Of a DNA stretch of 60,794 bases, positions 22,422 to 34,185 are shown piece after piece; position 1 is the stretch's first letter, and each line of letters opens with the position of its first letter. The notes beneath the pieces are model-generated. The model was not told the DNA's origin and did no database searches. It worked only from the letters and a program-made list of their open reading frames with translations. The DNA is from Myxococcales bacterium 68-20 (GTDB taxonomy: Bacteria > Myxococcota_A > Polyangia > Polyangiales > Polyangiaceae). Made by a program: the position numbers and the translations under genes. Where the stretch lies: contig MKVQ01000012.1 of NCBI GenBank assembly GCA_001899635.1, positions 275,995-336,788 on the forward strand. Direction: 5' to 3'.

Positions 22422-24482
22422 ATGCCCCTCCGTCGCTTCTCGTCTCGAACGTCCCTCCTCCTGGCGGTCTTGGGAGCCGCGTCCGTCGTAGCCGCGTGCT
22501 CCGGAGACGACGGCTCGGTCACCAGTCCCGCCGACGCAGGGACGGACGCGCAGGAGCCGGGGCGCACGGACGGTGGCGCCGAGCCCACATACGACTGCGC
22601 AAACCTCGACTGCGATGACGGGAACGCGTGCACCGTCGACACCTGTGATGCCAACAAGGGGTGCTCGCACGAAGCCCGCAACGGCTCGATGACGTTCGAT
22701 CCGCCGGTCGCCGACTTCGTCACGACGAATGGCGCGGTCACCCCCCAGCCGTTCAAGGCGCTTCAAAGCGGAGTCGACGTCACCCAATGCGTCGACTGGT
22801 CACTCGACGACGCGTCGATCGGGACCTTGAACGGCTCCGTCTTCACCCCCAACGGCACGTTCGGCGGAAAGGCCACGCTGAGCGCGAAGCTGGGCACCAC
22901 GACGAGCACACTGCCGATCACGGTAACGGCGATCGTCCAGTCGAACTCCGGCAACCTCACGGACGGTGACCGGACGGCGCTCGACACCCCTTCCGCGACC
23001 CCGGACCCTTCGCTCGACGTCACATATCCCGAAGACCACACCGTCTTCCCTCTCGACGTCTTGTCTCCGCTCGTTCAATGGAACGGCGGGCAGGCCAATG
23101 ACCTTTACCGCATTCAGGTCAAATCTCGATATTTCGAGGCGGTCGACTACGTCAGCGCGACACCACCTTCCCGCTACGAAATCTCGGACGCCGTTTGGCA
23201 GGCTCTCGGGCGTTCTGGTCAGGGCGCCGAGAGCGATCCGGTCACCGTCACACTCACCCGTTCGAGCGCCAATGTCACCTACGCTCCGGCGACGCGAACC
23301 TGGCACGTCGCTCAAGGGCGCTTGAGCGGCAGCGTCTACTACCGCGAGCTGCCAGGCCTCGGCGGAGGAGCCCCAAACGGAAGGCTCGCGGTGCTACGCC
23401 CGGACACCGGAAGCGCCACCACCGTCACTGGTGGTGGGGCGTGCAACTCGTGCCACTCCGTCTCGCGGAACGGTCGACACTTGCTGTCCTCCTTCGACAG
23501 CGGGCCCCCGTTCGACTTGCGACTCACGGATCTCACTCAAGCCCCTCCGACGACCGGGCCTGCAGGGCTCGGCGCAAACGTGAAGGGAACGTTTTCGGCC
23601 TTCAATCCGGCGGGCGACAAGGCGCTCGTCTCGTTCGATGCGGCCAACGGCACCTTCAGTCTCTCGATCGTCAACCTGAGCAACGGGCAATCCGTGGCGA
23701 GCGACGTGCTCGGTTCCAAGTGCGCCGAGCCCTCCTGGTCTCCCGACGGCTCACGCATCGCGGCGATCTGCGGCCTGCAAGGCGGAGGCTGGGCGTTCGA
23801 TCACACGGGCGGGTCCCTGCGCATCGGCACCGTCAATGCCGATGGTGTCACGATCGACAGCAGCACGGATCTCGTTCTTGCGAACGCCGGCCAAGGCCGC
23901 CCGAGCTATCCGAAGTTCTCTCCCGACTCCGCCTTCATCGCCTATTCGCGCACGACCACCGGCTCGCGCTCCACCGGCAACGGCCAACTCTGGCTCGTCG
24001 CGGTCGACGGTAGCTTCAACAAGCAGCTCACCACGATCTCTCGAGGAAACCACGAGTACTATCCGTCCTTCGCGCCTCGTCGCGCGGGTGGGTACTACTG
24101 GCTCGCGTTCACGTCGAAGCGCTCCTACGGCAACACGACCATCGACAAGCCCCAGATCTGGGTCGCCGCGATCAAGGACCCGCCGAACGAGACGGATCCT
24201 TCGCGTCCCGCGTTCTACCTCCGAGGCCAGGTCGCCTCCACGATGGCGTACGAGACGGACTTCGCGGCGAACGTGTGCGTCGACGACGGAGCAACGTGCA
24301 GCAGCGGGACTGACTGCTGCGGTGGCACGTGCGTGGTGACCACGCCGGGCTCGACGGGAACCTGCGGCGCGCAGCCGGCGGGCGCGTGCGTCGCCGAAAG
24401 CAATCGATGCTCGAAGAGCAGCGACTGCTGCGGTAGCGCGCAAGCCTGCATCGACAAGGTCTGCCAGCGCACCGCGCTGTAG
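22422..24482 (+). CDS. Lipoprotein with CxxCH motif, TolB-like propeller and Cys-knot-like tail
   Basis: A 686-residue lipoprotein (lipobox VVAAC, Cys26). A short Cys-rich segment (DCDDGNACTVDTC) is followed by an Ig-like region, then CNSCHSVS (341-345), a possible haem-c site at the start of a TolB/PD40-type beta-propeller (WSPDGSRIAAICG, FSPDSAFIAYSR). The C-terminal 70 residues carry two CC-containing knots (TDCCGGTC and SDCCGSAQAC). The combination suggests a surface protein with several binding modules. Redox activity depends on whether haem is attached. It is the last gene before a 243-base gap. Confidence 0.75.
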   Translation: MPLRRFSSRTSLLLAVLGAASVVAACSGDDGSVTSPADAGTDAQEPGRTDGGAEPTYDCANLDCDDGNACTVDTCDANKGCSHEARNGSMTFDPPVADFVTTNGAVTPQPFKALQSGVDVTQCVDWSLDDASIGTLNGSVFTPNGTFGGKATLSAKLGTTTSTLPITVTAIVQSNSGNLTDGDRTALDTPSATPDPSLDVTYPEDHTVFPLDVLSPLVQWNGGQANDLYRIQVKSRYFEAVDYVSATPPSRYEISDAVWQALGRSGQGAESDPVTVTLTRSSANVTYAPATRTWHVAQGRLSGSVYYRELPGLGGGAPNGRLAVLRPDTGSATTVTGGGACNSCHSVSRNGRHLLSSFDSGPPFDLRLTDLTQAPPTTGPAGLGANVKGTFSAFNPAGDKALVSFDAANGTFSLSIVNLSNGQSVASDVLGSKCAEPSWSPDGSRIAAICGLQGGGWAFDHTGGSLRIGTVNADGVTIDSSTDLVLANAGQGRPSYPKFSPDSAFIAYSRTTTGSRSTGNGQLWLVAVDGSFNKQLTTISRGNHEYYPSFAPRRAGGYYWLAFTSKRSYGNTTIDKPQIWVAAIKDPPNETDPSRPAFYLRGQVASTMAYETDFAANVCVDDGATCSSGTDCCGGTCVVTTPGSTGTCGAQPAGACVAESNRCSKSSDCCGSAQACIDKVCQRTAL

Positions 24483-24725: not shown

Positions 24726-25724
24726 ATGCGCAATGCGCTGGCGGGCTGCGTCGCGTTTGCGGTCGCGACGACGCTGATGCGCGATGCGCGAGCGAGCGAG
24801 GCGGAATTCGACCTCGACTATCGAGCACCGGCCGTGTGCCCGAGCGAAGCGGCTTTCGTCTCGGACGTTCGCGCGCGCCTCGTCGATCGAGGCTCCTCGA
24901 GCGCAGACAGGCGGTTCTTCCGGATCCGGATCGTCGAGGAGCGCGGGGCCTTTCGCGGCGCGCTCGAGACGCTCGAGCCGCCTTCGTCGCGCGAAGTCGG
25001 TGGTGATACATGCGAGGAGGTCGCTCGTGCCCTCATCGTGTTCCTCGCGCTGGCACTGAGCCCCGGCGACGAGCCACCGCCAATGCCCACCGGGGTCTCG
25101 CCCTCCCCGCCTCTGTCCTCCGACGTCGCCGCCGGCCCGCAAGTGCCGCTGCGGCCACCATCATCCAACACCGCCGAGGCCGCCCCATCGCCATCGACGA
25201 CGAGGCGGCTACGCATGGCGGTGGACGCTCGAGCTCTCGCGGCGGCTGGCCTCGCGCCGGAGCTCGCGCCGGGCGGGGCGCTAGCTGCACAGCTCGTGAT
25301 CGAGAGTCGCCCTTCGTTTCGCTGGCTCATCCACGCCGGCGGAGCGCTGGCGTACACGGAGACCGCCGCCGCGTTCGGCGGTGCCTTCAGCTTTCTCTGG
25401 TACACCGCGCGCTTCGACGGAGGCCCTGCTCTCGACCTCGGTCCCGTTCGATTGAGCGCCGGGCCGGTGGTCCACGCGGGCGTGCTCTCGGTCGGTGCGC
25501 GGAACCTCCCTTCGGCGGCTCGCTACGGCTCGCTCTGGGGGGACATCGGAGCCTTTGCGCGCGTCGATCACAGCCTCACGCGGCACGTCGCGCTCTCGCT
25601 CATGGTCGAGCTTGTTGCTCCGCTTCAGCGTCGATCTTTTGGCATTCAAGGAATCGAAACGCCGGTGCACGAGATCCCACTCGCGATCGGTATCGTTTCG
25701 GCCGGTATCACGGTGGGTCCGTAA
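24726..25724 (+). CDS. Exported protein, possible outer-membrane protein
   Basis: A 332-residue protein with a signal peptide (cleavage near DARASEA, residues 19-25). Residues 25-110 include two cysteines (VCPSEA, DTCEEV) and end in a helical segment (ARALIVFLALALSP). A Pro/Ser-rich linker (115-160) leads to about 170 residues of alternating strands (AQLVIESRPSFRWLIHAGGALAYTE, SFLWYTARFDGGP) that look like a small beta-barrel. This two-part layout recurs in myxobacterial surface proteins encoded beside ECF sigma genes, as here: the sigma factor begins 60 bases downstream. The function is unknown. Confidence 0.65.
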   Translation: MRNALAGCVAFAVATTLMRDARASEAEFDLDYRAPAVCPSEAAFVSDVRARLVDRGSSSADRRFFRIRIVEERGAFRGALETLEPPSSREVGGDTCEEVARALIVFLALALSPGDEPPPMPTGVSPSPPLSSDVAAGPQVPLRPPSSNTAEAAPSPSTTRRLRMAVDARALAAAGLAPELAPGGALAAQLVIESRPSFRWLIHAGGALAYTETAAAFGGAFSFLWYTARFDGGPALDLGPVRLSAGPVVHAGVLSVGARNLPSAARYGSLWGDIGAFARVDHSLTRHVALSLMVELVAPLQRRSFGIQGIETPVHEIPLAIGIVSAGITVGP

Positions 25725-25784
25725 AAAAGAATCGCCTTAGTTACGAAATTGGGAAGAAAGCGGACGTGAGCGGCGACTCATCGC
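25725..25784 (+). promoter_or_regulatory. AT-rich probable promoter of the ECF operon
   Basis: The first 35 bases after the preceding stop are markedly AT-rich for this genome (an A6 run, then TTAGTTACGAAATT). As the only gap before the sigma-factor operon, it is the likely promoter, possibly autoregulated by the ECF factor itself. No exact -35/-10 motif can be assigned. Confidence 0.4.
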
Positions 25785-26351
25785 ATGCCTGCGCAGGCGC
25801 TGCAGCTCGACGTCGCTCCGACACTCGCCATGTCGGTGCGTGAGACCGAGCACCGTGAACGTCTCTCGGAGCTCGTCCGGGAGAAGTACTCGTTCGTCTG
25901 GCGAAATTTGCGTCGCCTCGGCGTTTCGCACGCCGAGGTGGACGATGCCGTCCAGGAGGTATTCCTCACGACGGGGCGGCGTCTGCCCGAGATCCGCCCC
26001 GGCGCCGAGAGCGCCTTCCTCTTTCGGGCCTGCGAGTTCGTCGCGCTGCGCTTCCGGCGGCGGTTCGCACGACGGCGCGAGGTGGGCGACGACGAGCTCG
26101 TCCGCTCGGTCGATCCACGCGCGACCCCGGAGCAGCGCGCGGTGCAGAGCGAGGCGCGTGAAGCGCTCCAGCAAATCCTCGACTCGATGCCGGACGAGTA
26201 CCGGAGCGTCTTCGTGCTCTTCGAAATGGAACAGCTCTCGACCGCCGAGATCGCAACGACTCTCGACCTGCCCCCGGGCACGGTCAGCTCACGAATCTTC
26301 CGCGCGCGCCGCTTCTTCGAGCGTGCCGTGGAGAGGCAAGGCAAGCGATGA
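25785..26351 (+). CDS. ECF-family RNA polymerase sigma factor
   Basis: A 188-residue sigma-70-family factor with only regions 2 and 4. Region 2 spans about 28-95 (VWRNLRRLGVSHAEVDDAVQEVF, binding core polymerase and the -10 element), and region 4 about 135-185 (MPDEYRSVFVLFEMEQLS, then a helix-turn-helix ending SSRIFRARR). It should direct polymerase to promoters of its regulon, most directly its own operon. Its stop overlaps the next start by four bases (ATGA), so production is coupled to the probable anti-sigma factor. An ATG at 25830 is an alternative start. Assignment to the ECF family is secure; the regulon is inferred. Confidence 0.92.
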   Translation: MPAQALQLDVAPTLAMSVRETEHRERLSELVREKYSFVWRNLRRLGVSHAEVDDAVQEVFLTTGRRLPEIRPGAESAFLFRACEFVALRFRRRFARRREVGDDELVRSVDPRATPEQRAVQSEAREALQQILDSMPDEYRSVFVLFEMEQLSTAEIATTLDLPPGTVSSRIFRARRFFERAVERQGKR

Positions 26352-27154
26352 AGGATCCGCAGCGTCTCATCCAGAACGGAAGCTCGCGGGCGAAGGCGCT
26401 CCTAGCGTCCCTCGACGACGACGTCCCGCCGGATCCGGTCGGGGCCCAGGCACGACTCCTCCGCGCGCTCGATGGCGCTCCGAACAGCACCGGTGAGCTG
26501 CGCGTGCAGCCGCATGGCGGCGCGATGCGCAAATGGTTGGCTCTCGCATCCGTCGGCGGATTGCTCGTCGTGTCTGCAGCAGCGTACGAGCTTGCCCAGC
26601 GCGACGGCGAGGCGAGCGTGGTGGAGGTGCCGGCTGCGCAACACGAGGCGACGCCGACGCGCACGCCCGCGGAGCATCCCGAGCCCCCCGGGCCTCGAGC
26701 CGACGTGCCCCCGGCCCCACTCCAGAGTGTCGACGTCCACGCCCTGGCCGCCGCCCCTCCCGCCGACCGCGTCGAGCCGAGCGCCGTGCGTACGACGCGC
26801 AGCGCCCCCTCCCGAGATCCTGGCGAAGCAACACCTCCGAGCTCGACTCGTACGACGACCGCGCGCGAAACATCCGACGAGCTCGCCCTGCTCGAGGCTG
26901 CACAAGCAGCGACTTCGCGCGGCCGTCCGGAAGAAGCTCTCTCGCTCGTCACACGTCATCGTCGCGACTTCCCGCGCGGCCGCTTCGCCGTCGAGATGAG
27001 CGTCGTCGAGATCGAGGCGCTCGCCCGGACCGGTCGCGTCGAAGAAGCGACCGTCCGCGGCAGGCGGTTCCTCGAGGCTCATCCCGGCTCGCCGTACACG
27101 CGGAGGGTCGAAGCGGTCGTTCGCTCGCAGAATCAGAAGGAACAGACTCGATGA
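26348..27154 (+). CDS. Probable anti-sigma factor, single-pass membrane protein
   Basis: 268 residues: a cytoplasmic N-terminus of about 60 residues, one membrane helix (about 63-81), a Pro/Thr/Ala-rich periplasmic linker (90-165) and a C-terminal helical TPR-like module (about 170-260, with ALSLVTRHRRDFPRGRFAVEM). Position directly after, and overlapping, an ECF sigma gene and the single membrane span fit an anti-sigma factor that would hold the sigma factor until an envelope signal arrives. The short N-terminus lacks the HxxxCxxC zinc motif of many anti-sigma factors, so the sigma-binding mode is unclear. The TPR-like end could sense an assembly state of the surface proteins. Confidence 0.7.
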   Translation: MKDPQRLIQNGSSRAKALLASLDDDVPPDPVGAQARLLRALDGAPNSTGELRVQPHGGAMRKWLALASVGGLLVVSAAAYELAQRDGEASVVEVPAAQHEATPTRTPAEHPEPPGPRADVPPAPLQSVDVHALAAAPPADRVEPSAVRTTRSAPSRDPGEATPPSSTRTTTARETSDELALLEAAQAATSRGRPEEALSLVTRHRRDFPRGRFAVEMSVVEIEALARTGRVEEATVRGRRFLEAHPGSPYTRRVEAVVRSQNQKEQTR

Positions 27155-28383
27155 AGCGTCTTCTGTTGATCGCCGGGATGCTCTTCGTCGCGGTCGCCGG
27201 GTCGGCGAGCTGCTCCGCGACGGAGCGCGTGGACCTCGCATCGCCGCCGCCGTCGCCGACGACCGGCCCCGTCTTCACCGATCCATCCCGCTCCGATGCA
27301 TCGATCGAAGACGCGGCCGGGCCCGTCCTCGCATGCATCGCCACCGAGTGCCCTGACTCATACGCGACATGCACCTCAGAGACCGGGTCTACGTTCAAGT
27401 GCGGCACCAACCTCGCGCAGGACAACAACAACTGCGGCGCGTGCGGGAACAAGTGCCCCAACGACATCAATCTTTGGATGATGCTCAACATGACGTCGCG
27501 CTGTGTCGACGGCGCGTGCGCGTACCAGTGTTACAAACACTATTCGCTCGTCAGTAACGGGTTCGAGGACTGGACCGATTGCAACGGCCTGATCGAGGAT
27601 GGCTGCGAGGCCAACCTCACGAACGACGCCAACAACTGCGGAGTCTGCGGGAACCAATGCGCTGCAGGCACCCCGTGCATCGACGGGAAATGTGGCTGTC
27701 CCACCGGCTTGCTGTTCTGCAACGGGGAATGCGTCGATCCGCAATGGGACGACTACAACTGCGGCGCGTGCGGCAACGCCTGCGAAGTCCCGGCGGACGC
27801 CTGTGAGCAGCCGCACGTGGCGTATGGCTGCGTGCTCGGCCAGTGCGGCCAGAAGAAGTGCGCGGTCGAGAACAACACTCAGTACTACGACTGCAACAAA
27901 GACGTATTCGCCAACACGTGCACCGGTGACGGATGCGAGGTCGACAGCCTCAAGACGACCGAAAATTGCGGCACGTGCGGAAACAAGTGCGCCGCCAACG
28001 AAGAGTGCGTCAACGAGGGTAACGGTTACGAGTGCGCCGTCCCCTGCGAGCGGTCCGGCAAGGTGCGATGCAGCAACACGTGCGTCGATCTCCTCAACGA
28101 CGTACAGAACTGCGGCACGTGCGGCAACGCTTGCCGCTTCGGTGGAGACGACGAGAGCAAGCTGAAGGAAACGGCGTCTTGCAAAGAGGGGCTCTGCGTC
28201 TACGAGTGTCAGCCGGGCTTCGCTGACTGCAACAACGATCCGTCCGATGGCTGCGAGACGGACTTGAGCGTTCACTCCAAGAACTGCGGTGCGTGCGGCG
28301 TGACGTGCGACGTCGCGGCCGGTCAGCCTTGCATCGAAGGAAAGTGCCTGATGCAGGAGTGTGATGCAGGAGTGACGAAATGA
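27151..28383 (+). CDS. Cys-rich repeat surface lipoprotein
   Basis: A 410-residue lipoprotein (Cys21 after VAGSAS). The mature protein carries six repeats with the core NCGxCGNxC (NNCGACGNKC, NNCGVCGNQC, YNCGACGNAC, ENCGTCGNKC, QNCGTCGNAC, KNCGACGVTC), spaced 40-60 residues apart and joined by further Cys pairs. More than 40 cysteines must form disulphides, so the protein is extracellular and rod-like. Such repeats are common in myxobacterial surface proteins and resemble EGF-like modules in style, not in detail. The start overlaps the anti-sigma stop (ATGA), and the stop overlaps the next start. Ligand unknown. Confidence 0.8.
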   Translation: MKRLLLIAGMLFVAVAGSASCSATERVDLASPPPSPTTGPVFTDPSRSDASIEDAAGPVLACIATECPDSYATCTSETGSTFKCGTNLAQDNNNCGACGNKCPNDINLWMMLNMTSRCVDGACAYQCYKHYSLVSNGFEDWTDCNGLIEDGCEANLTNDANNCGVCGNQCAAGTPCIDGKCGCPTGLLFCNGECVDPQWDDYNCGACGNACEVPADACEQPHVAYGCVLGQCGQKKCAVENNTQYYDCNKDVFANTCTGDGCEVDSLKTTENCGTCGNKCAANEECVNEGNGYECAVPCERSGKVRCSNTCVDLLNDVQNCGTCGNACRFGGDDESKLKETASCKEGLCVYECQPGFADCNNDPSDGCETDLSVHSKNCGACGVTCDVAAGQPCIEGKCLMQECDAGVTK

Positions 28384-29612
28384 AGCGCTCACGAATCATG
28401 GGGGTGACGCTCTCGTCCGGGCTCGGGCTCGTTTCGGCAATACCCTGGCTGCTTGCGAGCTGCGCTACGACCGATGGCGCGGAGCCCTCCTCGCCCGACT
28501 CATCGACGCGTCTCGACGCCAGCGGAGCGTCCGATGCGGGCGATGCCGATGACGGCGCGGACGACTGCGATGCGTCCGACGAGAACTGCGTGACGACGCC
28601 CGTCGCCTGCGAAGACGCGTACTGGTGTCCGGTCGCGACGAACGTGAGCAAGTTCTACACGCTCACGAGCGTCTGGGGTTCGGGCAAGAATGACGTCTGG
28701 GCCACGGGCTCGGGCGGCACCGTGATCCACTGGGATGGAGTCGAGTGGACGCCGACGATCGTACCGTCGGAGACGACACTGCCAATCCGAGACACCTTCC
28801 GCGCACTCTGGGGGAGTGGCCCGAACGACGTCTGGATCGCGAGCGCGACCGACATGATCTACCACTCCGATGGCTTCAAGAACGGCACCGCGAACTGGGA
28901 GCTCACTCCGAGCGCGACGGACTCCGATTTCGACCGAAGGGCCCTCTTCACTGCCTGGGGCACCAGCCCCGACGATGTCCGTTTCGGTGGTGGCAGCAGC
29001 AGCTACTTCGATAGCGAGATCATGGAGGCCGTCTACACCAATCAGGTCGTGCGAAAGCCGTCCGCGGCAGGCATCGAGTGGACCCGCGCCAAAGGCCTCG
29101 CCACGGTCTACGGGCTCTGGGGTCCGTCGGCAAACGAGCTGTGGCTGATCGGCGACAACCGACCGTACGGCCCGCAGATCGCGATGACCCTTCACGGAAC
29201 GCGCAAGGACGACGGCGACGTCGTCTGGACGCAGGTCGACAGCCGGGCAACCGTCATCCTTCGAGGGATCTGGGGCAGCTCCGCAAGCGACGTCTGGACC
29301 GTTGGCGGCAACGGGACGATCCGCCACTTCGGCCCGAACGCGAGCGCGTGGGCCATCGTGGATGCTCCGACGAGGGCGAACCTCAACGCGGTATGGGGCT
29401 CGGGTCCGAACGACATCTGGGTGGTCGGAGACTACGGAACGATCTTGCACTGGGACGGAAAGACCTGGACCGAGTCGGACGCTGCTTTCCCGGCGCGCAA
29501 AGCGAAACCCCATCTCTACGGCATCTGGGGAAGCGGCCCCGACGACATCTGGATCGTCGGCAACGACATCGCGCTTCACCACGGGCCTCGCCAGACGGGA
29601 GGTGCGAAGTGA
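28380..29612 (+). CDS. Surface lipoprotein with WGSG propeller repeats (first copy)
   Basis: A 410-residue lipoprotein (lipobox LLASC, Cys28). An acidic Asp/Ala-rich linker leads to six or seven repeats of the type WGSGPNDVWxxG followed by GTIxHWDGxxW (for example SVWGSGKNDVWATG, AVWGSGPNDIWVVG, GIWGSGPDDIWIVG). Each is a four-strand blade, so the domain is a beta-propeller. These domains usually bind partners or sugars rather than catalyse. The start overlaps the previous stop (ATGA), and the next gene begins on its stop codon. It is a paralogue of the following gene. Confidence 0.8.
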   Translation: MKRSRIMGVTLSSGLGLVSAIPWLLASCATTDGAEPSSPDSSTRLDASGASDAGDADDGADDCDASDENCVTTPVACEDAYWCPVATNVSKFYTLTSVWGSGKNDVWATGSGGTVIHWDGVEWTPTIVPSETTLPIRDTFRALWGSGPNDVWIASATDMIYHSDGFKNGTANWELTPSATDSDFDRRALFTAWGTSPDDVRFGGGSSSYFDSEIMEAVYTNQVVRKPSAAGIEWTRAKGLATVYGLWGPSANELWLIGDNRPYGPQIAMTLHGTRKDDGDVVWTQVDSRATVILRGIWGSSASDVWTVGGNGTIRHFGPNASAWAIVDAPTRANLNAVWGSGPNDIWVVGDYGTILHWDGKTWTESDAAFPARKAKPHLYGIWGSGPDDIWIVGNDIALHHGPRQTGGAK

Positions 29613-30850
29613 TGCTCTCGCTCGGTCGTGCGCGCAGCGTCGCGCTGTTGGTCGGCATCGTCGCTCTCGGCGCCGGCGCGGCATGTGCGAGCTCAGAGGC
29701 GGATGACACGGCTCTTCCGCCGGATGGCGACGGTGGCGCGTCGATACTGCCGGAGGGCGGGGAGGAAGACCTCGACGCGGAGGCTCCGGCGCCAGCCAAA
29801 GACGCGGGGATCGACGCCGGACCGAAGACCTGCTCCGACCATGGCTTCTGTCCAACGACGCTCCCGGGCGACCAGACGGTGAACGGTCTCTGGGGCGACG
29901 GGACGGGCGTCGTGTGGGCAGTGACCAAGGAAGGCGACGTGCTCCGATGGGACGGAAGTGCGTGGTCCGTACATACGTCCGGCCTCGGCGAGCTCAAGAC
30001 CATCTGGGGCAGCAGCCCGACCGACATCTGGGTCGGCGGAAGCCAAGGCTTGCAGCATGGGACGGGAGAGAGCTCGACCTCGCTGACCTTCGCGTCGTCC
30101 GCCCTTCCGGGAGAATGGCTGCCGCCGATTCAATCCATCTGGGGCGCGTCCGCAAACGACGTTTGGGCCGTCGCGAGCTGGGGCTTCGCAGGCTCCGGAT
30201 TCGCATTCCACTTCTCCGGCCCGCGCGATGGTGGCACTGAATGGGAGCTCGACCCGATCTCGACGGCAGATGTCGGCTTCACCCGTGTCTGGGGTGGTCA
30301 CGGTACCGTGTGGCTCGGCGGCGGCCGCATGTCGACGGAGACATGGGCGAACGAGACCATCGTTCTCTACAAGTCGGGCAATGGCGAGTTCACCGAGCTG
30401 ACGCTGCCGGTCAATCCGGATCCGAAGCTCCGTGACCACGAGAAATACGCCCTCTTGACCGGCGCGATCGTGTCGACGAGCACGTCGGTCGTGATCTATG
30501 GCCAACCGGAGTCGATGTTCGTGCAGCCTTCGGTCTGGCGCGGAACGAGCGCAGACGGCGGCAAGACCTTCCAGTTCACCTGGGCCGCCGACCCGCGGAG
30601 AGACATCCCGAGGATCCACGCCGTCGCCGGCGTTGCGGCAAACAACGTCTGGGCAGTTGGTGAATACGGTCGCCTTCTCCACTGGAGCGGGACGAGCTGG
30701 GCGCCGACGGCGATCAGCATCACCGGTCAGCCCGTGCCAGATCCGTTCTTCGCGGTCTGGACGCGCGGCTCTTCCGAGATCTGGGTTGGCGGCAAGGGAA
30801 TGGCGCTGCGGTTCGATCCGGCGCACGCAAAGGATGGAGGTGCACAGTGA
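29612..30850 (+). CDS. Surface lipoprotein with WGSG propeller repeats (second copy)
   Basis: A 412-residue lipoprotein (AGAAC, Cys25), followed by an Asp/Glu/Pro-rich linker and a propeller of the same class as its neighbour (GLWGDGTGVVWAVT, TIWGSSPTDIWVGG, SIWGASANDVWAVA). Blades are more diverged, with longer insertions. The pair probably arose by tandem duplication. ATG at 29612 shares one base with the preceding TGA; a GTG at 29609 is an alternative. Its stop overlaps the next start (GTGA). Likely outer-membrane display; partner unknown. Confidence 0.8.
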   Translation: MLSLGRARSVALLVGIVALGAGAACASSEADDTALPPDGDGGASILPEGGEEDLDAEAPAPAKDAGIDAGPKTCSDHGFCPTTLPGDQTVNGLWGDGTGVVWAVTKEGDVLRWDGSAWSVHTSGLGELKTIWGSSPTDIWVGGSQGLQHGTGESSTSLTFASSALPGEWLPPIQSIWGASANDVWAVASWGFAGSGFAFHFSGPRDGGTEWELDPISTADVGFTRVWGGHGTVWLGGGRMSTETWANETIVLYKSGNGEFTELTLPVNPDPKLRDHEKYALLTGAIVSTSTSVVIYGQPESMFVQPSVWRGTSADGGKTFQFTWAADPRRDIPRIHAVAGVAANNVWAVGEYGRLLHWSGTSWAPTAISITGQPVPDPFFAVWTRGSSEIWVGGKGMALRFDPAHAKDGGAQ

Positions 30851-32337
30851 CCGCACGCCGACCTGACCGGCGAGGCAACCTCGACGTGGACCAGCTCACC
30901 TCCGCGGGCACTCGGCACGGGAGCTCCAAGCTCGCCCGGCGGCGAGGATTCTCCTCGACGCTCGTCGTCGTGGGCGTGTTCGCCGGAACTGCGAGCATCT
31001 TCTCGGTGGCGTGCTCGGACGACGTGATCGCAACAGCCGACACGACGCTCGATGCCGGCACGGACGTGTCGCGCGAGACGCCCGATACGTCGGTGCCCCC
31101 GCCCCCGCCCCCAACCGACGCCGGGGTCGATCCGGACGCACGCGGGCCGTACGATCCTGCCGACGTGCCGGTCGTCTGCGACGCGTCTCCGTGCGCGACG
31201 CAGATCGTCGCGGGCAGTGATCACTTCTGCACGCGAATGAGCGACAGCACCGTGCGCTGCTGGGGCAAGAATCAATCGGGCGTGCTGGGCAACTCGAGCG
31301 CCGGCGCCGGCAGCGACGCGGGCACGACGACCCGCGACGTCGGAGGTCTCTCCGGAATCACGCAGCTCAGCGCCTCGGAGCGAAACAACTGTGCGCTCCT
31401 CGAAGATGGCAGCGTGAAGTGCTGGGGTGCCAACGATTACTACCAGCTCGGCATCACGACGAATCGATACGGGGCGCACCCCGTCCCGAATACCGTCCCC
31501 CTTCCGTCGACCGCGACGCGCGTCGAGCTCGGGCCGTATCACGCGTGCGCATTCCTCTCGTCAGGCGAGCTGTGGTGCTGGGGCGCGGATCCCTATCTCC
31601 AACACCTGCGCAACGACGCCGAGTTCGAGGCCAATCCCATCCGGGCGCGCTTGCCCGGAAGGGCGCAGATCGAGCCGCTCGCCCTCACCGATCTCGCGAT
31701 GAGCAACAACACGCTCTTCGGCATCAGCGAGCAAGGCGAGGTCTGGAGCTGGGGAGCGGTCGGCGGCGACGACGGGACCATCGCCGGGCGAGTCGGGTCG
31801 ATCACGCCCGATACGACTCCGAAACGGCTCGCGTCACTCGAGAAGGTGACGAGCCTCGCCGCGAGCCCGCTGCTCAACACGTACCCGATCCGCATGCGGG
31901 GACACGCGTGTGCGAACGCGAACGGCGAGGTCTATTGCTGGGGACGCAGCTATGCAGGCGCGCTCTGCACGGGTGTTCCCGACGAGGAACGAGAGCCAGC
32001 CCATGCACCGTTCCCGAGCACGCTCCCGACCTGGCCGCAGCAGCTCGCGGCCGGCGACGAGATCACGTGCGCGCGGATGACGGACGGGAGCGTCTACTGC
32101 TGCGGAAGCGACGTCCGCGGCAGGCTCGGCACCGGCGCGATGATCAGCATGAGCCCGTTCTTCACGAAGGCCGCCGCATTCACGGGGCGCGCCGTACAGG
32201 TCGCGACCAGCAATCAGGCCGTCTGCGCCCTCGTGGAGGACGGCACCGTCGAGTGCTGGGGGAGCAACCAGAATGGTGAGCTCGGCATGCGCCCGGATGA
32301 CGAAGACCACCCGACGCCCGTGAAGGTCGCTTTCTAG
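30847..32337 (+). CDS. Surface lipoprotein with RCC1-type repeats
   Basis: A 496-residue protein from a GTG that overlaps the preceding stop. A long basic N-terminus of about 35 residues precedes the hydrophobic core and FSVAC (Cys56). A Pro/Asp-rich linker follows, then about seven RCC1-type repeats with the core CxLxxGxVxCWGxNxxGxLG (TVRCWGKNQSGVLG, SVKCWGANDYYQLG, TVECWGSNQNGELG). These form a seven-bladed propeller. Cys pairs within blades indicate an extracellular location. In eukaryotes RCC1 folds act as exchange factors; bacterial secreted ones are binding platforms of unknown target. Confidence 0.8.
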   Translation: MTARRPDRRGNLDVDQLTSAGTRHGSSKLARRRGFSSTLVVVGVFAGTASIFSVACSDDVIATADTTLDAGTDVSRETPDTSVPPPPPPTDAGVDPDARGPYDPADVPVVCDASPCATQIVAGSDHFCTRMSDSTVRCWGKNQSGVLGNSSAGAGSDAGTTTRDVGGLSGITQLSASERNNCALLEDGSVKCWGANDYYQLGITTNRYGAHPVPNTVPLPSTATRVELGPYHACAFLSSGELWCWGADPYLQHLRNDAEFEANPIRARLPGRAQIEPLALTDLAMSNNTLFGISEQGEVWSWGAVGGDDGTIAGRVGSITPDTTPKRLASLEKVTSLAASPLLNTYPIRMRGHACANANGEVYCWGRSYAGALCTGVPDEEREPAHAPFPSTLPTWPQQLAAGDEITCARMTDGSVYCCGSDVRGRLGTGAMISMSPFFTKAAAFTGRAVQVATSNQAVCALVEDGTVECWGSNQNGELGMRPDDEDHPTPVKVAF

Positions 32338-32349
32338 AGAGGTCGATTC

Positions 32350-34185
32350 ATGTCCCGCGTATTTGCTTTTCTCGTGGCAGCCGCCACCGTTGGAGTGTCG
32401 ACCCTCGGCGCGTGCGGAAGCGATCGCGGCGAATTCGTCGACAACGATCCGCTACCGTTCGATCGGAACGATGCCGCTACCTCCGACGATGCTCAGTGTG
32501 GCTTCCGCTGCTCGCGCGACCTGAAGAAGGTCCTCACAGGCTGCGGTGACGACGAAGGGCAGGTCGTGGCGGAGTGTCCGGCCGGCCAGGGCTGCGGCAT
32601 CGACAAGTGTGTCGATGCCTGCACGAGCGCCGCGCTCTCGAAAGGCTCGATGGGCTGCTCCTTCTGGATGCTCCCGCCCGACGAGTCCTTGGTCGAGAAC
32701 GGCGCCGGTGCTTGCTACGCGACCATGGTCACGAACACGTGGGACATCCCGATCGAGATCAACGCCGAATGGGGCATTGATTCGCTCGACATCTCGAAAT
32801 CGATCTACACGGTGACGCGACCGAACCCGAACGAAGACCCGGTGTACGCGCCGCTGGCGGGAGCGCTTCCACCAGGAGAGGTGGCCGTCATCTTCCTGTC
32901 CCAGTCGACCAACACGGCAGATCACGATCCCGTCTGCCCCCAGTGCGAATACAAGTGCCCGCCGGGGGTCGTGCCTGCGGTCATGGAGGACCCGATCAAG
33001 CACGGCACGACGAAGACGAAGGCATTCCACCTCACGACGACTGCACCGGTCTCTGCATATTCGGTTTACCCGTACGGTGGTGCAAAGAGCTTCATTCCGT
33101 CCGCCACGGTCCTCTTGCCCGTGACGTCGTGGGACACCGGCTACGTCGCCGTCGCAACGGCGGACTTCGGCCGGAGCCAGCGTCCGGAGCTTCACCGCCG
33201 GACGATCCAGCTCGTCGCGAACGACGACGAGACGAAGATCTCGATGCGCCCGACGGTCGACATTGCGCAGGGCGTCGGCGTCGAGCCCGCCCTGACGGGT
33301 GAGCTCGTCGAGTGGACCCTTTCGAAGGGGCAGGTCCTACAGATCACGCAGCTCGCCTCGCCGTCCGGCAGCCGCATCGTCTCGAACAAACCGGTTGGCA
33401 TGTTCGGTGGCTCGCCGTGCACGTTCATTCCGGCCGAATACCAATATTGCGATACGACCCAGCAGCAGATCCCGCCATTTTCCCAGTGGGGCACGTCCTA
33501 CGCGCTCGTTCCGTATCAGACGCGCCTCAGGGGCACGGGGGGAAGCACACCTGCCGAGCAGGTCTACTGGAGCTTCGTCGGCGCCGTCGACGGCACCGTG
33601 CTCACGTATGATCCGGCGAGACCGACCGGCGCTCCCGAGACGCTGGCGGCTGGAGAGGTCGCGACCTTCAAGACCAACGCGATCGTCACGGTCACGAGCC
33701 AGGGAGCAGCGCATCCCTTCCACGCCTCGGTCTACATGACGGGGGCGGACTACAACGGCGGGTCGGGCGCCGCCGGGCAGACGTTCGGTGATCCTGAGTT
33801 CGTGAGCCTTGTCCCCTCCGAGCAGTTCCTCGATCGGTACGTCTTCTTCACCGATTACACGTTCCCCGAGACGTCCCTCACGTTCGTCCGTCGCAAGACG
33901 TCAGCCGGCTTCAAGCCCGTGACGCTCGACTGCGGCGGCGAGCTCGACGGGTGGCTCCCGCTGGGCAACTCGGGCGAATACGAATACACCTGGGTGCGCC
34001 TCACGACCGGCTACATCCCGCAGACCATCGGCTCTGGGACCTGCGGCTACGGCCGCCACGAAGCGAAGAGCGACGGCGCGTTCGGCGTCTACGTCTGGGG
34101 CACGGCGCCGTTCGCGAGCTACGGCTACGCAGGTGGCATGGGCTCTCGCCCCGTCAACGCAGCGCCTCCGCTGATCATCCCCTGA
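32350..34185 (+). CDS. IgGFc-binding-protein-like surface lipoprotein
   Basis: A 611-residue lipoprotein (TLGAC, Cys22). A Cys-rich N-terminal segment (residues 48-105) is followed by a large beta domain (SVYPYGGAKSFIPSATVLLP, HASVYMTGADYNGG, and VPSEQFLDRYVFFTDYTFPETSL) matching the pattern of the IgGFc-binding N-terminal domain (PF17517). That domain is named from a mucin-type protein, and bacterial copies are probably adhesins. It starts 12 bases after the RCC1 gene stop with GAGAGG as ribosome site, so it closes the ECF operon. Cysteines suggest disulphides outside the cell. Confidence 0.8.
   Translation: MSRVFAFLVAAATVGVSTLGACGSDRGEFVDNDPLPFDRNDAATSDDAQCGFRCSRDLKKVLTGCGDDEGQVVAECPAGQGCGIDKCVDACTSAALSKGSMGCSFWMLPPDESLVENGAGACYATMVTNTWDIPIEINAEWGIDSLDISKSIYTVTRPNPNEDPVYAPLAGALPPGEVAVIFLSQSTNTADHDPVCPQCEYKCPPGVVPAVMEDPIKHGTTKTKAFHLTTTAPVSAYSVYPYGGAKSFIPSATVLLPVTSWDTGYVAVATADFGRSQRPELHRRTIQLVANDDETKISMRPTVDIAQGVGVEPALTGELVEWTLSKGQVLQITQLASPSGSRIVSNKPVGMFGGSPCTFIPAEYQYCDTTQQQIPPFSQWGTSYALVPYQTRLRGTGGSTPAEQVYWSFVGAVDGTVLTYDPARPTGAPETLAAGEVATFKTNAIVTVTSQGAAHPFHASVYMTGADYNGGSGAAGQTFGDPEFVSLVPSEQFLDRYVFFTDYTFPETSLTFVRRKTSAGFKPVTLDCGGELDGWLPLGNSGEYEYTWVRLTTGYIPQTIGSGTCGYGRHEAKSDGAFGVYVWGTAPFASYGYAGGMGSRPVNAAPPLIIP

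Follow-up and report, generated by a model that had tools for sequence, protein, structure and literature searches.

What does an operon that sets an extracytoplasmic function (ECF) sigma factor in front of a train of lipoprotein genes accomplish, and is it one system or one of many? We address this question for such an operon in Myxococcales bacterium 68-20, contained in a stretch of 60,794 nucleotides (contig MKVQ01000012.1, positions 275,995 to 336,788), hereafter the window. A first-pass annotation, made from the window's letters alone, had described a single self-contained system of seven genes starting at the sigma factor. All seven open reading frames are present, with the overlaps and the 12-base gap that it listed, but the operon is both longer and far from alone: it belongs to a family of eight-gene cassettes, about 110 to 120 in number, in which a further gene, U, encoding a predicted outer-membrane barrel, precedes the sigma gene. 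We label the other genes S (ECF sigma factor), A (anti-sigma-like), C (Cys-rich), W1 and W2 (WGSG), R (RCC1) and I (IgGFc-binding), and refer to U, S and A as the head and to C, W1, W2, R and I as the tail. The two halves of the cassette have near-independent histories. The sigma/anti-sigma pair is not evolutionarily tied to the cargo of the window operon and reassorts against it, while the five cargo genes have been inherited together, which would be expected of genes whose products cooperate. Based on these observations, we propose that the family is probably a combinatorial repertoire of sensor-controlled surface lipoprotein sets.

How large is the family? Profile hidden Markov models (HMMs) were built from the window genes, 160 loci of the window's genome (G000; a soil bacterium, 11.89 Mb) were fetched, and genes were ordered by domain position. 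The genome holds at least 150 matches to the sigma factor (150 scored of 259 candidates), at least 127 to the anti-sigma protein (150 scored of 419 candidates) and 141 to PF17517, the Pfam family of I, including three short fragments; PF17517 has no match in 14 control genomes (0/14). For 120 of the 150 scored ECF genes a PF17517 match lies downstream on the same strand, at distances whose quartiles span 6534-6755 bases, which leaves 30/150 scored ECF genes and 21/141 PF17517 matches unpaired. This census of sigma, anti-sigma and PF17517 rules out a single unusual locus. In the fetched loci, exact U-S-A-C-W-W-R-I cassettes number 90 and complete S-A-C-W-W-R-I cores 110, a count that leaves aside contig ends and variants that lack a gene or have additional ones; in 97 of the 110 cores U immediately precedes S, so that the operon does not begin at the sigma factor. 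The same loci contain 140 copies of the U family and 258 W genes, and fewer partial copies than complete cassettes. Because the order recurs in 110 complete cores, it is not a product of chance. Together the cassette-bearing stretches sum to 1.219 Mb, about 10% of the genome.

The genes are tightly packed as well as conserved in order. In the window the junctions are ATGA (S-A, A-C and C-W1), TGATG (W1-W2, with an alternative W2 start at the GTG at 29609) and GTGA (W2-R), followed by the gap of 12 bases between R and I. Across the family start and stop codons can overlap by 4 bases (ATGA, GTGA or TTGA) at 115/147 S-A, 112/132 C-W, 114/125 W-W and 75/124 R-I junctions, counted with the start codon nearest the preceding stop, a choice biased toward overlaps. 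The W-R junction favours a 26-base overlap (53/127; a 4-base one in 33), A-C is looser (4-base in 39/125, a gap of 31-150 in 43) and U-S is loose (median gap 42). The co-directional, tightly packed ECF operon with conserved order that the first-pass annotation had envisaged is thus seen in this genome, and it is seen in other species of the genus.

Do the two halves of the cassette descend together? We compared the pairwise-identity matrices of the eight genes by Spearman correlation over the 96 cassettes that have all eight genes and a callable U start (97 have U by order). Correlations reach 0.41-0.49 within the head and 0.74-0.85 within the tail, whereas all fifteen head-tail values fall between -0.08 and 0.06, with an overall head-tail r of 0.01; for S against I, the largest r of 100 permutations was 0.12. 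The nearest neighbour is the same cassette for S and U in 46 of the 96 and for R and I in 59, against 3 for S and I. Trees agree with this picture: U and S have 25 supported splits in common, R and I 39, head and tail 1, and the tail trees contradict 60/61 supported head splits. At identity cut-offs of 0.45 for heads and 0.60 for tails, the 96 cassettes fall into 49 head families and 50 tail families that occur in 84 distinct combinations. Unrelated heads sit on tails up to 88% identical, and 34/35 tail pairs above 0.7 identity have S,A identity below 0.40, with a median of 0.29 that equals that of all pairs. The median synonymous divergence (dS) of close tails, by gene, is just 0.30-0.46 (30 pairs), so that a head inherited along with them would still be recognisable.

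The fetched loci also contain looser arrangements, further signs of modularity. Some tails have no head on their own strand; in two cases the head is divergently adjacent (L099, C23:241697/241967; L160, C44:198785/198415), and in L201 head and tail adjoin on opposite strands. The order S-A-U precedes the tail in three loci, one of them without I. In L131 (C40:228426-222345, minus strand) and L150 (C43:346735-343106, minus strand), S-A is followed immediately by another kind of lipoprotein, about 410-420 aa long and with 23 Cys, after which L131 has an RCC1 gene, and a U gene lies further downstream in both; these are heads with other payloads.

Where do head and tail meet? When close tail pairs are compared along the cassette, their DNA identity climbs at one place from about 45%, the level of no homology, to 70-90%. 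A change-point fit to 34 non-independent pairs puts this joint 158-290 nt after the A stop (10th-90th percentile; range 138-963), typically just before the first Cys of the C globular domain, in an Asp/Pro-rich linker; the anchor codon was found in 94/96 and 99/110 cassettes. The joint therefore lies inside a gene, and it recurs in close tail pairs. Over the first 30 aa of C, mean normalised similarity is 0.11 across all pairs; the 55 closest tail pairs do no better (0.11), and the 55 closest head pairs reach 0.26. In close tail pairs the first 30 aa of W1, W2, R and I score 0.50-0.60. At the other end, 22/24 pairs lose tail homology between -16 and +45 nt from the I stop codon. A tail block cut near the start of the C globular domain fits a requirement that the parts fit physically, yet a limit of homology could give the same result. 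That the joint is an active exchange point, which generates new sensor-payload pairings and amounts to a population-level combinatorial code for recognition of prey, kin or surfaces, is an idea we hold to be rather doubtful.

The comparison can be extended to relatives. In 11 other genomes of the genus PF17517 counts run from 0 to 46 (G003 46, G006 17, G009 9, G011 9), and the same cassette order is found in G003, G006 and G009. One G003 locus (L191) matches a single cassette of the window's genome, C33_77347, with all eight genes. Among 15 relative loci with a head, the nearest head and the nearest tail in the window's genome belong to the same cassette in 6 and to different cassettes in 9; with L194 and L216 counted as one locus, the pairing is kept in 5/14 and changed in 9/14, two of the nine changed pairings (L198, L213) being ambiguous, as the cassette with the best head also supplies the second-best tail. 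One pairing, a head like that of C40_496198 with a tail like that of C27_6075, occurs in loci of all three of G003, G006 and G009; in the window's genome it is split over two cassettes. The first-pass annotation had made its proposal depend on finding the gene order elsewhere in Polyangia. The order recurs 110 times in this genome and in three relatives, but no complete cassette appears in the 28 loci from outside the genus, of which 5 have too little upstream sequence for one to be seen (L219, L227, L229, L231, L235). This outside sample, picked by PF17517 score, comprises 20 loci from 11 genomes (L222-L241), 3 from 2 genomes (L208-L210) and 5 named matches (L217-L221).

Simpler arrangements do occur outside the genus. 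In another family of the class (G072, L240, 1408-8465, minus strand), S overlaps a weak A and, after a gap, a weakly W-like lipoprotein gene overlaps I; within the family of the window's own genome (G115, L229, 1111-6329), a U-S-A trio stands divergently beside a solo I gene; and in L223 a stretch of about 5 kb that holds opposite-strand genes separates an S-A pair from I. An origin confined to the genus is weakened by the partial cassette of L240 and by the head beside I in L229. Among loci sampled by PF17517 score, complete cassettes come from the genus alone, and the simpler forms may be older; judging from L229, the head module may predate the cassette. Weak PF17517-like matches are also seen in two Bacteroidales records (L220 and L221; Proteiniphilum, Paludibacteraceae).

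How might such a cassette work? In the model that we propose, the barrel U and a periplasmic domain of A, which resembles tetratricopeptide repeats (TPR), would receive a signal from the envelope or the surface, A would release the ECF sigma factor S, and S would transcribe its own cassette. The five tail lipoproteins would then be exported and displayed together, the payload being probably one cell-surface recognition or adhesion assembly. We infer the signalling path, the promoter, the surface exposure, the five-protein complex, its ligands and its use, be it in recognition of prey, kin or substrate. The features of the window operon on which the model draws are collected below.

Table. Genes of the window operon and position of the head-tail joint (window coordinates).
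Feature	Coordinates	Strand	Description
U	24726..25724	+	Head; predicted outer-membrane protein: signal peptide, periplasmic beta-alpha domain, Pro-rich linker, 8-stranded beta-barrel
S	25785..26351	+	Head; ECF sigma factor, Sigma70_r2 and Sigma70_r4_2
A	26348..27154	+	Head; probable anti-sigma: cytosolic N-terminus of ~60 aa, one transmembrane segment, Pro-rich linker, weak TPR domain
C, whole gene	27151..28383	+	Cys-rich, STIG1-type
C signal peptide, lipobox, linker	27151..27333	+	Part of C tracking the head module in close pairs
Joint	27334..27336	+	First Cys codon of the C globular domain; position set by homology with other cassettes
C globular part	27334..28383	+	Tail module; Cys-rich, STIG1 / MXAN_6577-like repeats
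W1	28380..29612	+	Tail; WGSG beta-propeller lipoprotein (AF2 and Foldseek)
W2	29612..30850	+	Tail; second WGSG protein, same HMM family as W1
R	30847..32337	+	Tail; RCC1-repeat lipoprotein (PF13540, PF00415)
I	32350..34185	+	Tail; IgGFc_binding-domain lipoprotein (PF17517)

In the head, S combines sigma-70 regions 2 and 4 in a short protein of 188 aa, the hallmark of an ECF factor, with PF04542 and PF08281 above the Pfam cut-off and 71.4 bits for TIGR02937 (cut-off 42.9). A adjoins the sigma gene and has the layout of a membrane anti-sigma factor, single-pass with a cytosolic N-terminus: a transmembrane-like segment is present in 99/110 family members (median position 63), and the net charge of +1.7 before it and -0.4 after it places the N-terminus inside. 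A minority of members show weak TPR/BamD-like matches at the C-terminus, and no FecR domain was found among 25 A members at E<=0.001. For U, Pfam gave no match to the window protein and, in 24 members, one weak low-complexity match (PARP). Its AlphaFold2 (AF2) model (pLDDT 65.5, pTM 0.46; six sequences) shows a signal peptide, a beta-alpha-beta-beta-beta-alpha domain at residues 28-111, a Pro-rich linker and eight strands within 161-330, with NspA (E 5.5e-6) and the OmpA barrel (1.3e-5) as the best solved neighbours in Foldseek, so that U is predicted to be an OmpA-like 8-stranded barrel with a periplasmic domain. Aromatic C-terminal residues are expected of outer-membrane barrels, and an aromatic residue is among the last three of U in 58/96 cassettes. 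A direct U-A contact was sought by window-wise co-variation and dropped, as the correlations spread over U, A and S and no single interface stands out. Just upstream of U, at 22422-24482 (plus strand), lies a gene for a large lipoprotein-like protein with PD40 propeller and Dicty_CTDC matches; it matches only itself in the fetched loci and is probably outside the cassette.

The tail proteins bear family names that Pfam largely confirms. As the first-pass annotation had named them, C is Cys-rich and of the STIG1 type (Stig1 E 1.9e-10, above the Pfam cut-off; 89.1 bits for the MXAN_6577-like Cys-rich model NF041328, under its curated cut-off of 100), R carries RCC1 repeats (PF13540, 4e-45; PF00415 also matched) and I an IgGFc_binding domain (PF17517, 332.3 bits against a gathering score of 25.6), just as S belongs to the ECF sigma factors. 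The two WGSG propellers fare less evenly: no Pfam family reaches its cut-off in W1 or W2 of the window, but W1 is modelled as a beta-propeller (pLDDT 72, pTM 0.73), with a YCF48 propeller as best solved fold (Foldseek E 1.7e-14, 14-18% identity), and W2 belongs to the same sequence family. RCC1 repeats form propellers too, so that, contrary to the earlier claim, the five cargo modules are not all unrelated in fold. IgGFc_binding is a family name; nothing points to IgG as ligand of I, whose solved relatives are only antibody light chains at chance level. Lipoboxes at the chosen start are called, of 110, in 63 C, 87 W1, 89 W2, 77 R and 85 I proteins, against 1/110 for S, 1/110 for A and 10/96 for U. 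In E. coli, an Asp after the lipobox Cys is an inner-membrane signal. It occurs 3 times among 396 listed residues (of 401), which makes the outer membrane the likely destination of the tail lipoproteins, if this E. coli rule holds for myxobacteria. No positive selection on the tail was seen in 30 close pairs (dN/dS 0.30-0.42). None of the eight cassette proteins matched a PADLOC model of anti-phage defence at E<=0.001 (0/8), and a defence-system reading was rejected.

Several observations weigh against a repertoire of freely combined sensors and payloads. Median tail identity is 0.45 in the 55 pairs whose S,A identity exceeds 0.55, against 0.31 overall, and pairs with the same head and the same tail number 16 against 6.6 expected, so that some whole cassettes duplicate; in 7-9/96 cassettes C and a head gene have the same nearest neighbour (about 1 expected). 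Over all pairs the C signal peptide is uncorrelated with either head or tail (r -0.002 and 0.027), and the 25 linker residues that precede the joint track the tail (r 0.39); the placement of the joint thus rests on the closest, non-independent pairs. At least two breakpoints lie deep in C, at 656 and 963 nt, and C is the least conserved tail gene in 24/30 close pairs (tails above 0.72 identity), with a dS of 0.46 against 0.30-0.40 for the others, which indicates that exchange inside C also happens. As to mechanism, the U model is of low confidence and built on 6 sequences, and the start-codon choice behind the overlap counts flatters the packing. Of the probable anti-sigma protein that had been proposed, the position and topology stand, but no anti-sigma Pfam family was found in 25 A members scanned at E<=0.001, and the TPR match is weak. 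The claim of five cargo lipoproteins likewise finds support in the 63-89 of 110 family members per gene in which a lipobox is called and not in the 21-47 in which it is not. Nor did k-mer counts and expectation-maximisation motif searches reveal a universal ECF promoter in 109 U-S gaps: a TTTCGTGATC-like motif exceeds 8 bits in 41 (as a 10-mer) or 49 (as a 14-mer) of them, and control regions give equal or stronger motif signals. A first strong promoter signal was dropped, being partly the coding end of U. The gap at 25725-25784 of the window and those of its paralogues show a dip in GC and, in a subset, the TTTCGTGATC-like motif, a possible ECF promoter element.

Could the pairings have arisen without adaptive meaning? 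The reassortment may be a passive by-product of concerted evolution, in which tails are gene-converted up to the limits of homology; we regard this as a possible explanation, though not a probable one. Both borders of the tail coincide with the ends of homologous coding sequence, and in 12 pairs of neighbouring same-strand cassettes the tails are alike (median identity 0.58 against 0.31, p 2e-4) and the heads are not (0.28 against 0.26, p 0.15), so that local duplication or conversion of tails is part of the process. Conversion tracts, however, normally begin and end inside homology and would give mosaic tails, whereas the tail genes largely agree, R and I contradicting each other in only 8/55 supported splits beside the 39 in common, and the pairings differ between species. 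The idea that cassettes are duplicated whole, with nothing more than a faster divergence of their heads, is extremely unlikely as the main process. Mean identities in the head (U 0.22, A 0.27, S 0.34) are indeed below those of most tail genes (0.30-0.46), and the excess of same-head-same-tail pairs reveals some whole-cassette duplication, but heads have close relatives on other tails, as the nearest neighbours of S, U and I attest (S-I agreement 3/96, S-U 46/96), and the identity matrices and trees already contradict it.

Other explanations concern the use of the cassettes or the assembly itself. Nutrient capture in the manner of a polysaccharide utilisation locus, where the sensor detects a polymer that its tail binds, would accord with many ECF/anti-sigma-controlled outer-membrane operons in one genome, an arrangement reminiscent of the glycan loci of Bacteroides; in the cassette proteins, Pfam and NCBIfam scans show no SusC/SusD, TonB receptor or enzyme family, and we consider this unlikely. 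Antigenic variation, with one expressed copy and silent donors, likewise shares with the cassettes a large recombining family of surface proteins, but it is hard to reconcile with 110 complete copies, each with its own sigma and anti-sigma gene, and fewer partial ones, and seems to us improbable. An artefact of assembling a repetitive draft genome (52 contigs, 4.2% contamination estimate) is barely credible, given that the longest exact stretch common to two of the 110 cores is 48 nt near the joint and 108 nt anywhere, that G003 keeps the pairing of C33_77347 one to one over all eight genes, and that three relatives have one pairing in common. The combinatorial repertoire of sensor-controlled lipoprotein sets is the reading that we favour.

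How does the cassette compare with known systems? An excerpt of PMC2729926 describes cell-surface signalling by an outer-membrane protein, a membrane anti-sigma factor and an ECF sigma factor. Like the FecA-FecR-FecI type, the cassette combines these three elements over an envelope operon, but U is a predicted 8-stranded barrel and not a TonB-dependent receptor, A has TPR-like and not FecR-like matches, and the payload consists of five lipoprotein-like proteins; with neither a TonB-dependent receptor nor a FecR domain, the cassette lacks two defining features of that type. Bacteroides Sus-like loci also form many paralogous operons, each with its own ECF pair; the cassette differs in that no SusC/D or enzyme family was found, its halves reassort and the joint lies inside a gene. 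The var, vsg and msp2 families are large recombining repertoires of paralogous surface proteins, whereas the 110 cassettes are complete, each has its own regulator, and recombination joins regulator to payload. YCF48, a photosystem II assembly factor, shares the fold of W1, which differs from it in its low identity, as a lipoprotein and in the absence of a photosystem. ECF numbers of this order are precedented, since an excerpt of PMC4598750 gives 109 sigma factors for Sorangium cellulosum and over 115 ECFs for Gemmata obscuriglobus; what sets the window's genome apart is that 120 of its 150 scored ECFs precede the same type of cargo. Among the matches listed in searches of an open-access library, judged by title and abstract, none describes this organisation, and the excerpt of PMC8999054 adds nothing to the novelty question. 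The parts, namely ECF sigma factors, RCC1, IgGFc_binding and Cys-rich proteins, are familiar, yet we know of no described system with this organisation.

What are the implications of such a family? The cassettes pair sensors of dozens of types with payloads of dozens of types and constitute a natural experiment in regulatory rewiring. The copy number of PF17517 varies steeply within the genus, from 0 to 141, and its selective cause is open to comparative study. The family also raises questions that can be tested: how crosstalk is avoided among more than 100 ECF systems running in parallel, whether the five lipoproteins assemble into a single complex, and what the recognition targets of Labilithrix-type myxobacteria may be.

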